A stretch of 44,410 nucleotides of DNA from positions 1 through 44,410 of the forward strand of contig CAIMUS010000269.1 in NCBI GenBank assembly GCA_903844665.1. Direction: 5' to 3'. The notes beneath the pieces are model-generated. The model was not told the DNA's origin and made no database searches. It saw nothing but the letters and a program-made list of their open reading frames with translations. Positions 7,185 through 32,987 of this stretch are shown here, piece after piece (positions within the stretch are counted from its first letter, which is position 1; each line of letters begins with the position of its first letter). The position numbers and the translations under genes are program-made. The DNA comes from an uncultured Pseudomonadota bacterium (lineage in GTDB: Bacteria > Pseudomonadota > Gammaproteobacteria > Competibacterales > Competibacteraceae).

Positions 7185-7195
7185 GCAAAACAGCA

Positions 7196-7271
7196 GCTTA
7201 ACCTATTCCCCCTCCCCTTGTGGGAGGGGGTTAGCTTAACCTATTCCCCCTCCCCTTGTGGGAGGGGGTTA
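7196..7271. repeat. 38-bp perfect tandem duplication of a C/G palindrome
   Basis: Two adjacent identical 38-base units (7196-7233 and 7234-7271), each with CCCCCTCCCC...GGGAGGGGG able to form a hairpin. No gene lies between gltA and the gene ending at 7388; these repeats fill that space. Confidence 0.8.
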
Positions 7272-7387
7272 GGGGGAGGGGTGTGAACGCTTACAAATAA
7301 GGTCGTGCGGTAGAGCGTTTCCGGCGCTCCTGGGCATGCCGGAAACGGCCGCCGTTGGCGGCCTTATTCCGGCCTACGGCTGCTTGG

Positions 7388-13366: not shown

Positions 13367-13415
13367 TTCCATGCGGCGGGCGCTACCGCAACAAATCATT
13401 GAAGGGGTTAATGTC

Positions 13416-16295
13416 GTGCATTCATTTGTCAGACGTTTTTGCCAAATCTTTGGGCTGGGTATTCTGGTGCTGCTGTTTGCCGGTTGCGGTGGCGGTGGCG
13501 GCGGTTTCAGCGGCGGTGGTCAGCAGACCACCACTACGACATCAACCCCACTGAGCATTACCACGACTTCCTTGGATGATGGCACCGTCAACCAGACTTA
13601 TCTCCAGTTGCTGGAAGCCGATGGTGGTAGCTCCAGTACGGTGGTGAAATGGGTCAGCCAGGGTCTGTTGCCGCCCGGCTTGGCGCTGGATTCAAGTTTA
13701 GGCAAGATCAGTGGTACGCCGACCACCCCCGGCACTTATCCCTTCCTCGTGCAGGCGCAGGATACTCAGAACAGCACCCTTGATTCGGCTGTCACGCAAA
13801 TGAGTATTACGGTTGATTCGGCCGCTCTCCCTCCGGCCTTGAGTATTACTACTGACGCATTACCAGATGGTAATGTTGGGGTTAACTATCTGCAATTATT
13901 ACAGGCTACGGGCGGTGGAACGAATGCTGTTTACAAATGGAGTATCACGAATGGGGAGTTGCCGCCTGGTTTACAACTTGGTACAGATTCCACGACCAAC
14001 CAGGGTTTAATCAGTGGGACTCCAACAACTACTGGCAGTTCTTCTTTTATTCTCCAGGTGCAGGATTTAAAGAATACTCAAGCAACACCGGCAAGTAAGC
14101 AGTTTAGTATTACTGTCAGCCTGGGCGCAGGTTCCGGCCAGCCTGCACCAGCTGCGTTGGGTCTGGGCACCAGTCAGATTTCGGTGAAGTCTGACAATTC
14201 CGACAGCGCGATGATCACGGCCACGGCGCTGGACAAAAACAATGCGAGCATCCAGGGCACTAACGTTTCCTTCTCTGCCAGCGGTGGGCAGCTTAGTGCC
14301 GCCAGCGTCGCGACGGATGCCAATGGCAAGGCGGTCGTCCAATTCAGCGCAGGCAATGTGAACACTGCCAATCAGGTGGTTACGATTACCGCCACTGCGG
14401 GTACGCTACCCTCCCGATCTATCCCCATCCAGATCGTGGGCAACACCCTGCAACTGACGGCCGCCAATACATCCCTGCCTGCTGATGGCTCCCAGGATAC
14501 TGACATTCAAGTTACCCTCCAGAATGCAGGCTCTGCCCCCATCTTTGACTCGTCAGTGTGTTTCCAAACACTGAGTACGGCTGGCGGCAATTTGAGCCTG
14601 AGCGATCCTGCTACTGGCAATGTGTTGAGCACGCCCTGTCCGGTGTCCGGTGTCACCGGCGTATTGGCTGGCAATACCGATGTAAGCGGGCAACTGCATA
14701 TCCGGGCGCGGGGCAGCAGTGCCGGGCAGGTTACGCTGATAGCCAGCTCAGCAGGGACACTGGCCAGCCAGGACTTTTCAATTGTCGACACGGGACAGTT
14801 ATTTCAAATCACCGCTCCTGCGCATAATGCACCTCCCCAGCTTATCAATACCGGTGGCTTTACATTCATCGTAAAGGCACCAGGGGCACAAACTGTGTTC
14901 TTGTCCACTTCACTAGGCACTTGGCAGAATAACCAAGCCACTATCGAAGTTCCCGTCTCAGGCGATCAGGCTACAGCTACACTGACGTCCAACCTTGCCG
15001 GTGTGGCCAACGTATTGGCGCAGGATAAAAATACACCGACGCGCACTGATAATGTGCAGGTCCAATTCACAGCGGATATTAGCAATGCAGCCCAGTTGCT
15101 GTTGGATGCATCGCCACGGGTGGTGCCGGTCAGCACTGGCGGCGTGCAGAACAGTTCTACGCTCATAGCTACGTTGCTGACAGCACAAGATCAGCCTGTT
15201 GCCAACGCCGTGGTCAGTTTCACGTTCCTGAATTCGACGGGTGGCGGTGAGGTCATCAGTCCGCCTACTGCAGTGACCGGTGCGACGGGGGAAGCAAGCA
15301 CCACCTTCACCTCCGGCAGCCGGGCCAGCAGCGCCAATGGCATTAGCATACAGGCGCAGGTGGTGAAACCGGATGGCACGATACTGAAAGCCGTGTTTAA
15401 TATGGTCATCACTGGCAAAGCCGGTTCCGTCACGATCGGTACCTCGACGACAGTGGCATCGATTAATCAGGACACCGCTTACAGCCTGCCCATGTCGGTG
15501 CTGGTCGCGGATGTTAACGGCAATCCCATCAGCAACACTGTGGTTAATCTGAGCGCCTGGCCTCTGTTTTACAACACGGGTTTCCGGGCTGGATCTTTCA
15601 ACTCGAACGATTCAAAGCCGAGCCGTCCCATTGTTACCGCTGTTTTCCCTAACGAGGACGTCAATGAAAACCTCATCTGTGATGGTTGCAATCCGCCAGG
15701 TAGTGGAGAAGATTTCAATGCCGATGGTGTATTGACCCCGCCAAACACTGTGGCCGGTAATCTGCCCAGTTCAGTCACGACCGACCAGAACGGCCTGGCT
15801 ACCTTTAATCTGGTCTACCTGAAAGAATATGCTGATTGGGTGGAGGACCGTATTCGCGCCAGTACCCTGATCAGCGGCACAGAGATTGTCTCTCAATTTG
15901 TGTTCACCCTGCCAGGTTCGGTGACTGACGAAACAGCCAGTTCTCCTGTGCTGCCGAATTCGCCGTTTAACGTGGTCTGCCCGTACGCCTTAAGTATTTC
16001 TTCAACGCCGGTGAATGTGCCTTTGGGACAGTCCGGGTCAGTAACGCTGACTTTGACCTTAGAACCCCCTGCTTCGCAACCATCGGTAGCTGACCAGCCG
16101 ATCACCTTCCTGGCGAATAACACCAACATCGGCGCGAGTGAAGGTGCTACCGACCAGGGTGGCAATTTCACTTCCCAAATAACCGCATCAAGCAATGCTA
16201 AGGTAGGAGATACCGCCGTAGTCACCTATTTTGCCAGTTGTGCGGAGGCGGCAGTTAACGTGACGGTGGTGACTCCAACTACTCCAACTCCATAA
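13416..16295 (+). CDS. Large Ig-like repeat lipoprotein between pilQ and aroK
   Basis: About 959 residues. The N-terminus is a lipoprotein signal ('LGILVLLFAGC' followed by a GGGGGG run and a Thr-rich linker). Two putative-Ig (He_PIG-like) modules follow, each with 'LPPGL...ISGTPTT' (about residues 84-115 and 182-215), then a series of bacterial Ig-like (Big_1/invasin-like) modules with 'TDANGKAVVQFSAG', 'TGATGEASTTFTSG' and 'TDQNGLATFNLVYL'. Near residues 745-778 a segment with 'NEDVNENLICDGC' and 'GEDFNADGVLTPP' resembles calcium-binding loops. I chose GTG 13416 (GAAGGGG upstream). Base composition is more AT-rich than pilQ in the 13.8-14.1 kb part. Its position directly after pilQ suggests a surface or pilus-related adhesin, but no function is demonstrated by sequence. 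Confidence 0.8.
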   Translation: MHSFVRRFCQIFGLGILVLLFAGCGGGGGGFSGGGQQTTTTTSTPLSITTTSLDDGTVNQTYLQLLEADGGSSSTVVKWVSQGLLPPGLALDSSLGKISGTPTTPGTYPFLVQAQDTQNSTLDSAVTQMSITVDSAALPPALSITTDALPDGNVGVNYLQLLQATGGGTNAVYKWSITNGELPPGLQLGTDSTTNQGLISGTPTTTGSSSFILQVQDLKNTQATPASKQFSITVSLGAGSGQPAPAALGLGTSQISVKSDNSDSAMITATALDKNNASIQGTNVSFSASGGQLSAASVATDANGKAVVQFSAGNVNTANQVVTITATAGTLPSRSIPIQIVGNTLQLTAANTSLPADGSQDTDIQVTLQNAGSAPIFDSSVCFQTLSTAGGNLSLSDPATGNVLSTPCPVSGVTGVLAGNTDVSGQLHIRARGSSAGQVTLIASSAGTLASQDFSIVDTGQLFQITAPAHNAPPQLINTGGFTFIVKAPGAQTVFLSTSLGTWQNNQATIEVPVSGDQATATLTSNLAGVANVLAQDKNTPTRTDNVQVQFTADISNAAQLLLDASPRVVPVSTGGVQNSSTLIATLLTAQDQPVANAVVSFTFLNSTGGGEVISPPTAVTGATGEASTTFTSGSRASSANGISIQAQVVKPDGTILKAVFNMVITGKAGSVTIGTSTTVASINQDTAYSLPMSVLVADVNGNPISNTVVNLSAWPLFYNTGFRAGSFNSNDSKPSRPIVTAVFPNEDVNENLICDGCNPPGSGEDFNADGVLTPPNTVAGNLPSSVTTDQNGLATFNLVYLKEYADWVEDRIRASTLISGTEIVSQFVFTLPGSVTDETASSPVLPNSPFNVVCPYALSISSTPVNVPLGQSGSVTLTLTLEPPASQPSVADQPITFLANNTNIGASEGATDQGGNFTSQITASSNAKVGDTAVVTYFASCAEAAVNVTVVTPTTPTP

Positions 16296-20566: not shown

Positions 20567-20580
20567 TGCAGTTTGCAATA

Positions 20581-20628
20581 TGCACTTTACTATGCACTTT
20601 ACTATGCACTTTACTATGCACTTTACTA
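20581..20628 (+). repeat. 12-bp tandem repeat, four copies
   Basis: TGCACTTTACTA occurs four times in perfect tandem, just after mvaB and just before the MITE-like element. A multiple-of-three unit leaves one frame open, giving an artefactual repetitive peptide; no gene is proposed. Confidence 0.9.
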
Positions 20629-20646
20629 TTCATTTGCAATAATCGA

Positions 20647-27162: not shown

Positions 27163-27924
27163 TTAAACCTTTAAGTTTCCTGCAAAATCGAACGTCCATT
27201 TACCAGTTCCCCCGGGCCGGCCCAACAGGCTGAGGGCTTGATACAGTTCACGGTTGTCCTGATCCCGTGGTGCGGCCTGAGCGGTAAAACGGTAACGGCC
27301 ATCGGGGTCCAAGGTCAGGTTGCCGTTGAGTTGCAACGGCCCGCCCTGGTCCTGAATCGAGGCAATCAGGGCGCTGGCCTGGATTTGCAATTGTATCTCG
27401 AAGTTACCCAGGGATAGAGGAGTGCCGAAGCTGGTGCTGAGATTATGCAGGTGGATCAGACCGCCGGCCTCCGTAGGCCGATAGTCGCGATTCAGGCTTA
27501 ATCCCACATTGTCCAGTTCCAGCATGCCATTCAGCGGCGGAGGCGGGCGTCCCGCCAGAGCGATGGCTCTGGGCAGCGGGAGCTGTCCATTCAGCGCGAC
27601 GATCCGGAACTGCCGGTCGAGGCCCAGGCCGGCGATCCCTCGAAGATTCAGCTCGGGCGCGGTCAACTGCAAATCGTATTCGATCCGTCCCAGCAACAGG
27701 GGCAGCACCCGCAGTCGCCAGGCGATGGTTTCCAGCCGCGCCGTAGCCGACAGTTGCACGCTTCGGGCCGTGCCCTGAACCGCGCTGCCCTGCACGCTTT
27801 GAGCGCTGAAACCAGGCAGGCGCTGCGCCAACTGCTCTATGAGCAGACCCGCCGGACACAACAGCACCAGGAAGACGGTATATGCCAACAGGCCCAGCAG
27901 GATATAGGCCAGCAGGCGTCTCAT
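27163..27924 (-). CDS. gspN: Type II secretion system protein N
   Basis: 253 residues: one N-terminal transmembrane helix ('LLAYILLGLLAYTVFLVLL'), then a beta-rich periplasmic domain with the pattern 'PAGLLIEQLAQRLPGFSAQ', 'GTARSVQL', 'LDRQFRIVALNGQLPLP' typical of GspN. It is an accessory component, not universal in T2SS. Its start overlaps the gspM stop by 4 bases. Confidence 0.85.
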   Translation of the reverse strand: MRRLLAYILLGLLAYTVFLVLLCPAGLLIEQLAQRLPGFSAQSVQGSAVQGTARSVQLSATARLETIAWRLRVLPLLLGRIEYDLQLTAPELNLRGIAGLGLDRQFRIVALNGQLPLPRAIALAGRPPPPLNGMLELDNVGLSLNRDYRPTEAGGLIHLHNLSTSFGTPLSLGNFEIQLQIQASALIASIQDQGGPLQLNGNLTLDPDGRYRFTAQAAPRDQDNRELYQALSLLGRPGGTGKWTFDFAGNLKV

Positions 27925-28415
27925 GAGGTCCTGCCTTGCAGCACCAGCCGGGCATCGACCCGGCCGGCTTCCGCTTGGCGATCGAGGGTGACACTGGCGC
28001 TGGTGACGCCGTGTTCCTGCTCCAACGACCCCAGCCAGCGAATCAGTCGATCGAAGTCGACCTGTTCGAATTGCACCCGCAGCTTGTCCTCGCCTTGCGG
28101 TTCGATCCGCTTCATCACCGTACCCAGTCCCGCCGTTCGGGCGGTCTGGTCGACCAGGGTCAACAGGGATTGGGGATTACTCTGACGGGCCGTCGCCGCG
28201 GCGGGTGAGGCGCTCGACCGTTTGACCTCCGCGGCGGCCTGCCGCATCCAGGCGAGATCCTGGCGTTGAGTGGCCACCGTCTGGCGCAGAGTGAGCAGGT
28301 TGGCGTGAAACGGGCGCCAGGCCAGGGCATAGAGCAGAAACAGCAAGGTCAGGGCGCCGCCACCGCCTGTTATCCAGCGCTCGCGCTCACTTAGATTGCT
28401 CCACCAGTTTTTCAT
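27921..28415 (-). CDS. gspM: Type II secretion system protein M
   Basis: 164 residues: 'NLSERERWITGGGGALTLLF' with a single transmembrane helix and a ferredoxin-like periplasmic domain ('GTVMKRIEPQGEDKLRVQFE', 'FDRLIRWLGSLEQEHGV'). GspM partners GspL in the inner-membrane platform. It overlaps gspL and gspN by 4 bases on each side. Confidence 0.88.
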   Translation of the reverse strand: MKNWWSNLSERERWITGGGGALTLLFLLYALAWRPFHANLLTLRQTVATQRQDLAWMRQAAAEVKRSSASPAAATARQSNPQSLLTLVDQTARTAGLGTVMKRIEPQGEDKLRVQFEQVDFDRLIRWLGSLEQEHGVTSASVTLDRQAEAGRVDARLVLQGRTS

Positions 28416-29599
28416 GAGGCCGCCTTTTTAACCGTGATCTGGCTTTCCACCTTATCTTCCTTTTTGGTCGTGCGGATCTGTGTTTCCAGCCCTGCCTGTT
28501 CGGTGAAACGCTGCTTGAGCTGGTCGAATATTTCGAGGCTGCCGCCTTCCAGGTCGAAATCCAGTTGGTTTTCCTTGTAGCGCAGACTACGCAGGGTCAC
28601 ACCCGGCAGGGCCTGAATCGGTTGGCCGCCGCGATACAGCAGATCGAGAAAGGCGGTGCCAGCGGTAGCGTCGCCGCTGCGCAATTCCCGCAGCCGGCTT
28701 TCCAGTTGGACGCGGGGATTGACGATCTTGCGGGCATCGGGTACGGCTTCTTTGTAGACCTGTTCCATTGCCGCGCCAAGGCTCGCCTGTTCCTGTTTAA
28801 GCTGCCGATATTCGCCGATTTGCAGCGCCAGTTGCAGCAGCAGCCATACTCCGACCAGGGCCGCCGCGGCCCGCCAGGGACGCAGCCACTTACCCAGTTG
28901 CGTCTGCCGGCTGTATTGGCCCTGCAACAGATTGATGACAGTGGCGGGCTGGTAACCGGCGGCGAATACGCGCAGCGGTTCCGGCTGACTTTCCTCCTGG
29001 CGGAGTTCGATATCCAGCCCCGTCAGTTCCGGCGTGAGTTCTCCCCAGACCCGCAGGTAGTGGGGCTTCTGTTCCCCGGCTTCCGCCAGCGCCAGATTCA
29101 ATACTGTCTCCAGTTCGCTCTGGTCGGTGACGAAGCCATCCCAGTAACCGCTGCGCACGATCGCCCGGTTATCGTCCAGCAGCAGGCTCCAGGAATCTTC
29201 GGCGTAAGGCAACAGCAGCGGCTCGGGAATGATGGCATTAAGGCTGAGGCCGGCCTGGGTACAGGTTTCCAGCCAGGCCTGCAGCGTCTTATGGTCCACC
29301 ACGGCGACCGGGATGGAATCGTCCGCGAATTCGCCCACGGCGAAGTGCAGTTCTTCCACATCCGCGGCCAGGTTATCTTCCAGGGCAAAGGGAAGCGCTT
29401 TGAGTCGGGCCGAGCGTTGCCGGCCGGGGACTTGAGCCACGCTCAGGGTAATCGCTTCGCTGGGAGCCGCCAGCAGCAGGCGATCGCCGCCGACCTGGGC
29501 GGCCAACTCCGCCGGCGCGCCTTGCTGCAGGCCGACGTCGGGCTCGAACCATTCCACTTGCTCAGGGCTAAGAAACCGAAATAACAGGATCTGGGGCAT
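28412..29599 (-). CDS. gspL: Type II secretion system protein L
   Basis: 395 residues: a cytoplasmic actin-like domain ('LLLAAPSEAITLSVAQVPG', 'LKALPFALEDNLAADVEELH'), one transmembrane helix ('AAAALVGVWLLLQLALQIG', about residue 245), a coiled coil and a periplasmic ferredoxin-like domain ('GVTLRSLRYKENQLDFDLEG'). GspL anchors the GspE ATPase, which is not encoded here. A 29-base gap separates it from gspK. Confidence 0.9.
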   Translation of the reverse strand: MPQILLFRFLSPEQVEWFEPDVGLQQGAPAELAAQVGGDRLLLAAPSEAITLSVAQVPGRQRSARLKALPFALEDNLAADVEELHFAVGEFADDSIPVAVVDHKTLQAWLETCTQAGLSLNAIIPEPLLLPYAEDSWSLLLDDNRAIVRSGYWDGFVTDQSELETVLNLALAEAGEQKPHYLRVWGELTPELTGLDIELRQEESQPEPLRVFAAGYQPATVINLLQGQYSRQTQLGKWLRPWRAAAALVGVWLLLQLALQIGEYRQLKQEQASLGAAMEQVYKEAVPDARKIVNPRVQLESRLRELRSGDATAGTAFLDLLYRGGQPIQALPGVTLRSLRYKENQLDFDLEGGSLEIFDQLKQRFTEQAGLETQIRTTKKEDKVESQITVKKAAS

Positions 29600-29628: not shown

Positions 29629-30888
29629 CTAATAATCGTTACCGAAACTACGGAATAATACCTTAATATCGCCATCTTCTGAACGCTCCACCACGCTGTG
29701 CAGGACGGCCCGCCCCTCCCCGACGCTGGCTTCGACCTCGATCAGGAAATGCTGCGTGTCGACCGCCAGATTCAGCATGGGACCGGTCCGACCGGCCAGC
29801 TTCGTGGCTTCGATAAATTCGTTGATATCTTTATAGCTTTCTTTCGCTTCCTCCGCCGATTTTTTAAATTGCTCTATATTCAGGTTCTCGTTCAAGGCGG
29901 CCAGCACCACCGGCGAGGCGGTGTTTACATTCAAGGCCGTGCCGGGAGGCAGGACGCAGACATAAGGCGCCAGTTTGTTATACGTCGCCGCGTCGATTCC
30001 CTTGATCAGACGCAGTTCGGTAACGCTCGTCAGCGGCTGGTTGGCGGCCACATAAGGCGGATCGAGACCCTCGTAATCGCTGTCCTCGGCGCCATTGGCG
30101 CGTTTTTCCTTATCCGCGTCGATCCAGTCGGCGATGGCGTCGGCGAGGGCGGGATCCAGTTCCAGTAGTTCCAGCAGCCGCTGCAACACCTGGAATTGTT
30201 TTTTGTTGATGGTCTTGCGTTCGGTGGAGGCTTTGTCGGTGCCCTCCTTCTCATCATTCGCTTTATCTTCCTCCTTGTCGGCATTGTTTTCCTCCTTATC
30301 GGCGCTGTTTTCCTTTTGGTCGGCGTCGTTCTCCTCCTGGTCGGCGTTGCCTTCTTCCGCGGTATCTTGCTGTTTCTGTCCCAGGGAGGATTTCTGGTTC
30401 AGAGCGGATGCCTGCCCTTTACGCTTGGTTCCCGGCAGGTTGGGCTTGTTCGAGTTCGCTTTGGCATCCGCCCCTGGTTGCTTTTTGGTTCTGAGTAAAT
30501 TGTTCAGGTTGAAGCGGCCCTGTAAATCCTCGATCCGGCCGCTGATGGAGCCCCCCTCCACCGGCAGGGAAGGCGGGATCGTCGCCCAATCCTCTTGCAG
30601 GGTGTCGACCCTTTCGTTTTGTTCGAGGTCGTTGCGCAGATCGCGCTTGAGCAGAGAGATAGCCCACTGCTCCGCGCCCAGCGTGTACAGGCGGGCCTGT
30701 TGCTGGTTCAACAGCAGCGTGCTGCGGTGGAGGGTATATCCTTGCAGCGTCATCAGGCTGGCGGCGGCGACGCTGGCCATAAAAACGATCAGCAGCACTG
30801 TAATCAGGGCGACTCCGCGCTGACGTCGCCGGCAGGCCGCCGGGTTGACAGGGATTGGCTGGAGGGCGGCAACGCGAAAGAACCGCAT
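29629..30888 (-). CDS. gspK: Type II secretion minor pseudopilin K with charged insertion
   Basis: 419 residues from ATG 30888. Prepilin peptidase site 'RRRQRG|VALITVLLIV', pilin helix, 'GRIEDLQGRFNLNNLL', then the helical domains 'FQVLQRLLELLELDPALADA', 'VTELRLIKGIDAATYNKLAP' and 'ALNVNTASPVVLAAL'. Between the pilin part and the helical domain, residues about 135-229 (DNA 30202-30486) form a low-complexity insertion rich in Asp, Glu, Lys, Asn, with near-repeats ADQEEN/ADKEEN. The family usually has about 300-330 residues, so the insertion explains the extra length. GspK caps the pseudopilus tip with GspI and GspJ. Confidence 0.9.
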   Translation of the reverse strand: MRFFRVAALQPIPVNPAACRRRQRGVALITVLLIVFMASVAAASLMTLQGYTLHRSTLLLNQQQARLYTLGAEQWAISLLKRDLRNDLEQNERVDTLQEDWATIPPSLPVEGGSISGRIEDLQGRFNLNNLLRTKKQPGADAKANSNKPNLPGTKRKGQASALNQKSSLGQKQQDTAEEGNADQEENDADQKENSADKEENNADKEEDKANDEKEGTDKASTERKTINKKQFQVLQRLLELLELDPALADAIADWIDADKEKRANGAEDSDYEGLDPPYVAANQPLTSVTELRLIKGIDAATYNKLAPYVCVLPPGTALNVNTASPVVLAALNENLNIEQFKKSAEEAKESYKDINEFIEATKLAGRTGPMLNLAVDTQHFLIEVEASVGEGRAVLHSVVERSEDGDIKVLFRSFGNDY

Positions 30889-30889
30889 A

Positions 30890-31534
30890 TCAATACCCCG
30901 CCAAGGAAAACAGCCGGGTGATTTCCCCCCAGTCATTCAGCACCACAGTCACTTCCACCGCCCGCGGCAATTTAGGTTTCTGCTCCGCTTCCGGAGCCTC
31001 TTCCTTGGGCGGCCATTCCTTATCCCACTTATCCTGATCATTTAAAAACCGCATCCGAACATCCTGCACGCCATCCAGCAGCAGGCTGGCCTGGGGTTTA
31101 CTGGCGCCGCCGCGGTCCAGGCTATCCCAGGACAGTCTGAACAATTGTCCCTGTTCGAAGCGGTAGGCCAGACGTTGCAGGCCGGACCGCGGTTGTCCCA
31201 AGGGATTATCCCAGCCGGCCCGGGTGAAAATCAGCAGGTCACCCAGCAGCCTGCCGGTTTGCAGAGGCGGTTGGGTTTCGCCGTACTCGTCGCGAATTCC
31301 CCTTGGCACGGCTTGCGCTATATCCCGTTCGAGCAGAAAAAAGGCCATTTGCAGTTCGGCCAGCCGCTGTGTCTCCGTTTTCACCGCCGCCTCGGTAAAG
31401 AGGATGCTGTGCAGACTGCTGTAGGCGGCGGCGGCCATGATGGCAAATACCGCCAGGGCAACCAGCAGTTCCAAAAGAGTGAAACCCCTCTGGCGGGAAG
31501 GCTGAAATCGAGGGGATGGGAGTACGCAGGTCAT
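30890..31534 (-). CDS. gspJ: Type II secretion minor pseudopilin J
   Basis: 214 residues from ATG 31534. Prepilin site 'SRQRG|FTLLELLVALAVF' with Glu5, then 'LQMAFFLLERDIAQAVPRG' and 'LQRLAYRFEQGQLFRLSWD'. Near the C-terminus a charged stretch ('KEWPPKEEAPEAEQKPK') looks like a family-atypical loop. A longer frame open to 31657 runs back into gspI and is not needed. It ends 1 base before the gspK start. Confidence 0.92.
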   Translation of the reverse strand: MTCVLPSPRFQPSRQRGFTLLELLVALAVFAIMAAAAYSSLHSILFTEAAVKTETQRLAELQMAFFLLERDIAQAVPRGIRDEYGETQPPLQTGRLLGDLLIFTRAGWDNPLGQPRSGLQRLAYRFEQGQLFRLSWDSLDRGGASKPQASLLLDGVQDVRMRFLNDQDKWDKEWPPKEEAPEAEQKPKLPRAVEVTVVLNDWGEITRLFSLAGY

Positions 31535-31541
31535 GACCGGG

Positions 31542-32027
31542 TTATTGTTTTGCGGCTGGATGGGTCTGTCCTGACTTGTTGCGCTCCGTGGCCTTGGCGC
31601 CGGCGGCAGTCTTCGCGCCCTCCCCCGGCTTGCCCTGATCCACCGCCGTATCGGCATCGGTACCCGAGCGTCCCTTGAAGGCGATCAGTTCAACCAGCGG
31701 CGCGGCGTCTTTCTGGTCACGGACAGCCACTTCCACGCGGCGCAGTTCGGGATCGCTGGTTTTACCGATGCGTACCTCCCAATACCATTCCCGATTTCCG
31801 AAGGTGACCGTATCGGCATGGCTGCCAGGATCGGGCCATTCGCGCAACAGCAGCGTCTCGTTGACCTTGTTCAGCGCCACCCAACTGGCCAGCGTCCGGT
31901 CGCGCAGCATCGCCACGTTGCGCGCGCTGGCGCCGCCGGCCTGGATCATGGCGCCGAGCGTCAGGGCCAATATCGCCAGGGCGACCATGACTTCCAGCAG
32001 GGTAAAGCCACGCTGTTTGGGTTTCAC
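31542..32027 (-). CDS. gspI: Type II secretion minor pseudopilin I
   Basis: 161 residues: '[20 protein letters not shown]', then 'LASWVALNKVNETLLLREWP' and 'WYWEVRIGKTSDPELRRVEV'. The usual protein ends about residue 120-125; here a disordered Gly/Ala/Lys tail of about 40 residues follows ('TAVDQGKPGEGAKTAAGAKA'). It overlaps gspH by 4 bases. Confidence 0.92.
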   Translation of the reverse strand: MKPKQRGFTLLEVMVALAILALTLGAMIQAGGASARNVAMLRDRTLASWVALNKVNETLLLREWPDPGSHADTVTFGNREWYWEVRIGKTSDPELRRVEVAVRDQKDAAPLVELIAFKGRSGTDADTAVDQGKPGEGAKTAAGAKATERNKSGQTHPAAKQ

Positions 32028-32554
32028 CGCATGGCTTCCATGGCTAAATGGCCGGTGACGTCGCCGTCCACCCGGTAACTTTTCTTATTGCTGCCGTAAG
32101 GCGCCATTTCATCGGCCTCGTCGAAGATTACCGTAAAGGGTGTCATTTCACCGCTGGAAAGCAGCAACACCTGAGGCAGGTCTACAGTCGCTTTCTTGAA
32201 ATCCACCAGGCGCCCTTCCACCCACAGTTGCAGCCGCAATCCCGCCGGCAACTGATAGGCCCGTTCCGACGTGAAGCCGTTCCCACCGCCCTGCCCACCC
32301 TTGCCACCCTGATAGGTCATCAGCTCATAGCCGGTTTCGGTGAAGTACACCCCACGCTGGTCACCCCGCAGCAGCGCATCCTGCTGGGTCATCTCCAGCA
32401 CGGCGATCAGGCGGCGGGATTCCCCGGCCAGGCGCTCGGCGGGGCCTTTGCCAGGCAGGGACAGCACGGCGAAGCTGGCGATGATGCCGATCAGCACCAT
32501 CGTGACCATGATTTCCAGCAGCGTGAAGCCGGCCTGGCGCCGCTTACTGCTCAT
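32024..32554 (-). CDS. gspH: Type II secretion minor pseudopilin H
   Basis: 176 residues: '[20 protein letters not shown]', '[20 protein letters not shown]', '[13 protein letters not shown]', with a Gly-rich loop '[11 protein letters not shown]'. GspH is a minor pseudopilin of the tip complex. It overlaps gspG by 11 bases. Confidence 0.92.
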
Positions 32555-32987
32555 CCAGATTCCAGCTCCCGATATCGGCGTCCACGCCGCTGCCGCCCTG
32601 TTGGTTGTCGGCGCCGAGGGAATAGATATCGACGGCGCCGTGCTGACCGGGACTCAGATATTGATAGGGCTGGCCCCAGGGGTCTTTCGGCACACGATCG
32701 ATATAACCGCCCTCCTTCCAATGGGGCGGCTCCGGAATGCTGGTGGGTTTTTGCACCAAGGCTTCCAACCCCTGATCCGTTGTGGGATAGCGAAAATTAT
32801 CCAATTTATACAAATCCAGGGTGCTGTGCAGCACCCGGATATCCTGTTTGGCTTTGATGACTCGGGCCTGATCCGGGCGGTCCATGATACGGGGCACCAC
32901 AATAGCAGCGAGAATGCCCAATATGACCACCACCACCATGATTTCGATCAGGGTAAAACCCGTGGCGCGTTTGGGAAAGGTTCTCAT
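32544..32987 (-). CDS. gspG: Type II secretion major pseudopilin G
   Basis: 147 residues, the main subunit of the pseudopilus. '[19 protein letters not shown]' is the prepilin cleavage and N-methylation site with Glu5; '[19 protein letters not shown]', '[17 protein letters not shown]' and the C-terminal '[15 protein letters not shown]' with the calcium-loop region are textbook GspG. First gene of the operon gspGHIJKLMN; gspC, D, E and F are absent from the window. Confidence 0.96.

Follow-up and report, generated by a model that had tools for sequence, protein, structure and literature searches.

A gspK gene from an uncultured member of the Competibacteraceae raises the question of why a protein at the tip of the type II secretion system (T2SS) should carry a long charged segment between its pilin and helical domains, and whether this segment is an artefact, a binding element, or an inherited part of the protein. 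The window, by which we mean the whole stretch of DNA analyzed, has a length of 44,410 nucleotides.

The gene (29629..30936, minus strand) was identified as gspK, a T2SS minor pseudopilin, by the curated-model profile NF037980 (290.6 bits, where the cut-off is 130), by the Pfam domains T2SSK_1st and T2SSK (PF21687 and PF03934, both exceeding their gathering scores), and by Foldseek matches to 6utu, 5vtm, and 3ci0. Counted from the first ATG the protein has 435 amino acids, while translation more likely begins at the ATG at 30886-30888, directly past the stop codon of gspJ. The six best PDB matches to the predicted model were all GspK chains (E-values of 1.1e-17 to 1.5e-12), and a pilin fold with an inserted helical domain of the 3ci0/5vtm type was found, in a model whose mean pLDDT is only 61. 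The fold is shared with XcpX, the GspK of Pseudomonas aeruginosa (5vtm/6utu, filament model 9a1f; E-value 1.1e-17 to 6utu), and with the GspK of enterotoxigenic E. coli (3ci0), which belongs to the same kind of tip complex. Its neighbors form a gspG-H-I-J-K-L-M-N cluster on the minus strand, which includes the GspG, H, I, J, L, and M expected of a T2SS GspK: the major pseudopilin gspG (32544..32987, TIGR01710), gspH (32024..32554, TIGR01708), gspI (31542..32027, TIGR01707), gspJ (30890..31657, TIGR01711), and the downstream gspL, gspM, and gspN (27163..29599, Pfam T2SSL/GspL_C, T2SSM, and T2SSN). GspD is encoded on a separate contig (C8) of the same genome, adjoined by ORFs that by eye resemble GspC, E, and F. 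Judged from its sequence, GspK apart from the linker appears to be a normal T2SS GspK. Two further ORFs were observed by eye: an OmpA-like ORF with a repetitive Gln/Gly/Pro/Tyr-rich tail (L187, 12497-13411), which adjoins gspCDEF-like genes, and a 974-residue ORF of the window rich in Ig-like repeats (13371-16295), directly after an apparent pilMNOPQ cluster.

The linker is located between the pilin strand and the helical domain. Its core, delimited by composition and by a pLDDT below 50 over residues 151-241, covers residues 148-241 (94 residues; 30214..30495, minus strand), and the full span between the motifs FNLN and LQRLL is 105 residues (30187-30501, minus strand). The charged insertion that the original prediction placed between the two domains at 30202-30486 is real and lies close to that position. 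The 94 residues include 15 Lys, 12 Ala, 12 Glu, 10 Asp, 10 Asn, and 8 Gln, with a charged fraction of 0.43 and a net charge of -4, divided into +7 in the first half and -11 in the Asp/Glu-rich second half of 47 residues. The ADQEEN and ADKEEN repeats reported there earlier were confirmed as seven-residue units of a 21-bp in-frame tandem array (30268..30349, minus strand; 3.9 copies, TRF score 101), which encodes NADQEEN, DADQKEN, SADKEEN, and NADKEED. Among 259 ORFs of at least 100 amino acids in 306 kb of the genome (the 44-kb window and 20 stretches), the GspK linker contained the least hydrophobic 60-residue segment (0.017, followed by 0.067), a ranking in which several of the other matches may be spurious frames; no genome-wide tendency to such stretches was seen in this sample. 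Perfect tandem repeats were also observed elsewhere in the window, one of 12 bp at 20579-20629 (4.2 copies, TATGCACTTTAC) and one of 38 bp at 7195-7272 (2.1 copies), inside which CCCCTCCCC...GGGAGGGGG looks like an inverted repeat.

In an AlphaFold model built on a shallow alignment of the window protein and four relatives, the linker had a pLDDT of 31-36, and residues 151-241 stayed below 50 with no secondary structure, with a strand on one side and a helix on the other that were both predicted confidently. The linker has the few hydrophobic residues, the lack of predicted structure, and the rapid sequence change by which intrinsically disordered regions are recognized, and the model suggests that it is a disordered surface loop. 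In contrast to about 95 residues in the window GspK, the same junction has only a few residues in XcpX, and it is short in 3ci0 as well. Because the helical domain joins the pilin fold at two points, only one of which is lengthened, the insert would be a loop and not a tether. For an unconstrained chain of 94 residues, a general formula gives a radius of gyration of about 29 Å, and a closed loop would be smaller. According to PMC6211770, the pseudopilus tip spans 79.6 Å, and GspK is on top of it in the SAXS model.

The alignment and length comparison of GspK homologues proposed in the original prediction was carried out among the genomes of the family. A search with the window protein yielded matches in 32 of 39 family genomes, two of which (G031 and G032) matched weakly, at the level of a second paralogue. 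All 30 distinct canonical GspKs read from the family contain the linker, with 48-84 residues from FNLN to LQRLL in the relatives and 105 in the window, whose copy has both the longest linker and the strongest tandem repeat in the family; the partial genes L011 and L018 were left out of the statistics that use 28 sequences. The family also includes second, weaker GspK-like genes (L054 and L059-L064), in which no long linker was found by motif; in L055 no junction was found.

Outside the family, long linkers were rare. The comparison covered 65 GspKs drawn from samples of the class, phylum, and order and from three distant named loci. The two motifs are separated by 10-28 residues in 61 of them and by 49, 58, 61, and 100 in the other four, a share of long linkers that is inflated, as the set is non-random and some sequences were picked for a long-looking match. 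A scan of named genomes gave four distant loci only. The four long-linker outsiders (L164 of G249, L115 of G116, L100 of G040, and L092 of G104) resemble the window GspK in having a long and probably disordered segment at the same junction, while they differ from the family in composition and in their tree position among short-linker GspKs. For example, the linker of L164 is N/G-rich, that of L100 P/K-rich, and that of L115 A/S/T/P-rich. The 100-residue linker of L115 holds two cysteines (PCASGTPC), the only ones observed among linkers of at least 40 residues.

A domain tree was constructed from 89 sequences with the linker removed and with L011, L018, L031-L033, and L117 dropped. The 28 complete family GspKs formed one clade (support 0.987), in which the window copy was the deepest branch, and the sister of this clade (0.837) was the single GspK from the sister family, with a linker of 16 residues. 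The four long-linker outsiders were placed among short ones, with supports of 0.907, 0.855, 0.845, and a weak 0.326; therefore, the linker was probably gained five times in the sampled set. The tree shows the linker to have been present already at the base of the family, and the loop is an inherited, family-wide feature, neither an artefact nor unique to the window. Within the linker, the 21-bp repeat alone seems to be specific to the lineage.

The linker evolves faster than the domains around it. Its identity was lower than that of the domains in all listed pairs with a domain identity of at least 0.72; for example, L005 and L010 are 89% identical in the domains and 39% in the linker, with an unchanged linker length. 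For the ten most similar pairs, dN/dS was 0.10-0.19 in the domains and 0.13-0.97 in the linker, values obtained by a simple method from short sequences of biased composition. Because the linker dN/dS was below 1 in the listed pairs where it could be computed, some linker residues may matter. Linker lengths clustered by genus (65-76 residues in g4, 72-78 in g2, 80-84 in g3, 67-69 in g9, and 48-65 in g13), with a mean difference within genera of 4.3 residues versus 10.7 after shuffling (p 0.0002), a test that cannot separate shared ancestry from selection. The result shows that length is inherited and is compatible with selection on length, while the constancy within genera may instead come from shared ancestry. 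The hydrophobic fraction stayed within 0-0.09 across the 28 complete linkers of the family. Of the tandem arrays with a score of at least 50, five lay in linkers (5.1 kb) and a single one in the remaining parts of these genes (28.1 kb; P 0.0004); the linker arrays occurred in 5 of the 28 linkers, which make up 15% of the bases of the genes, and their periods were all multiples of three. An acidic-then-basic charge order was seen in the 27 other complete family linkers (summed asymmetry 75, against a mean of about 0 and a standard deviation of 22 in shuffles, with 0 of 1,000 as high), although related family members were counted as independent and the trend is weak. As it is also reversed in the window linker, this order was rejected as a defining trait. 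Additionally, the third linker residue is Trp in 27 of 28 family GspKs and in none of the 65 others, the window copy having Leu; such a pattern is suggestive of a local contact and not of bulk alone.

We lean toward reading the linker as a disordered surface loop at the tip of the pseudopilus, tolerant of sequence change but maintained in length, which acts by its bulk and is lengthened by slippage, and we hold this to be somewhat probable. The loop would sit where the helical domain of GspK inserts into the pilin fold, and because both of its ends are at one place on GspK, it would hang atop the tip as a hydrated, excluded-volume loop. Selection would act on bulk and disorder, not on a binding motif, and slippage and small in-frame tandem duplications would lengthen the linker. 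As a spacer or bristle, it would play a steric role next to the GspI-GspK contact, with the rest of GspK functioning normally.

The main rival is a tolerated, near-neutral expansion, in which a permissive junction collects slippage-prone sequence and only solubility and reading frame are selected. The independent appearance of long linkers of different chemistries at the same site in four other lineages argues for it, as do a linker dN/dS near 1 in the close pairs L014/L002 (0.93) and L014/L008 (0.97), the concentration of tandem arrays in linkers, and a charge order that is not kept and that runs opposite to the family trend in the window. However, functionless insertions tend toward deletion in bacteria, and loss was seen in none of the 30 family GspKs; the linker length is also steadier than its sequence, and the Trp at the linker start is specific to the family. 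Neutral expansion is accordingly regarded as possible but rather unlikely.

Another explanation involves GspI, which the original prediction described, together with GspJ, as atypical and as part of a coordinated change of the tip complex. The description held for GspI: its match to TIGR01707 stops at residue 106 of 161, and the remainder includes a family-wide C-terminal tail of low complexity, which follows LIAF and is about 44 residues long. Measured from the GFTLLE-type motif, GspI has 128-163 residues in 26 family members (L181 was dropped for a frame problem that inflated its GspI and GspJ lengths, and L127 because GspI was absent from the stretch) while 20 of the 21 others have 116-125 (L161 dropped for the same absence), the exception being G100 with 152 residues. 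It did not hold for GspJ, as XcpW WPTDEGSEEERLESLP aligns with WPPKEEAPEAEQKPKLP of the window GspJ and the P. aeruginosa stretch is likewise charged and one residue shorter. GspH and GspJ were ordinary, GspG was constant in length within the family, and GspJ was rejected as a participant in a coordinated change. Nor were the GspK linker and GspI coupled in length (Spearman 0.28, p 0.16, n 26); G249, G116, and G040 have a long linker without a GspI tail, and G100 the reverse, so that coordination was not borne out. Residues V122 and F124 of XcpV contact XcpX, as reported in PMC6211770. Because they fall near LIAF, just ahead of the GspI tail, by a count in which the published numbering is not fully matched to the chain, the tail and the linker may be near each other.

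The linker and the GspI tail could be pictured as a disordered arm that captures exoproteins or touches GspC or GspD by charge. The tip location would suit such an arm, the tip being critical for substrate recognition and binding as stated in PMC6211770, and the GspI tail is family-wide too. The linker interior has little alignable sequence, however, its charge order varies, the two lengths are uncorrelated, and outsiders have the linker or the tail alone, all of which make a binding arm improbable.

Calcium binding or buffering by the acidic repeat, which had also been proposed, is more doubtful still, to the point of being very improbable, and was not supported. The Asp/Glu-rich second half of the window linker, with its net charge of -11 over 47 residues, speaks for it, but over their whole length the 28 complete family linkers have a net charge between -9 and +2. 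Known calcium-binding repeat loops are of the DxDxDG or GGxGxD type, and none was found on reading through residues 148-241. The window GspK does have conserved acidic residues in the helical domain, seen as acidic alignment columns (DWIDADKE, GAEDSDY; 30073..30129, minus strand), and at a putative third calcium site. XcpX has two canonical sites and a third one formed by D65, D78, and E82 (PMC6211770), and an Asp/Asp/Glu set of the window GspK aligns with the latter (KRDLRN, RVDTLQEDW; 30586..30648, minus strand), with the XcpX numbering agreeing at seven residues. None of the three falls inside the linker, and acidic residues occupy all three positions in each of the 28 family GspKs and in 53 of 64 others, conserved even where a long linker is lacking. 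Acidic residues at this site are commoner here than the 37-species survey in PMC6211770 suggests.

An assembly or sequencing artefact, for which only the 348 contigs of the genome could speak, is given almost no weight, as the segment is in frame and has counterparts at the same place in the GspKs of 29 other genomes, and the related idea of a recent slippage artefact absent from close relatives fails because all 30 family GspKs read have the linker.

Among the papers listed in literature searches, none dealt with a long linker in GspK, and none was found on Competibacter and type II secretion together. To our knowledge, the field has not settled how the pseudopilus tip meets its substrates and the gate of the secretin. 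A bolder and unlikely extension of the bulk-acting loop would have the linker of GspK and the tail of GspI form a permanent disordered bristle at the tip of the family's T2SS, tuned in length and free in sequence, which would gate or fill the secretin channel purely through its bulk. For annotation, the results warn that differing GspK lengths need not imply new domains. If the expansion is neutral, GspK could conveniently be tagged at this permissive junction. The family loop, together with the four independent gains, offers naturally graded linker lengths with which to test the part played by tip bulk in secretion.
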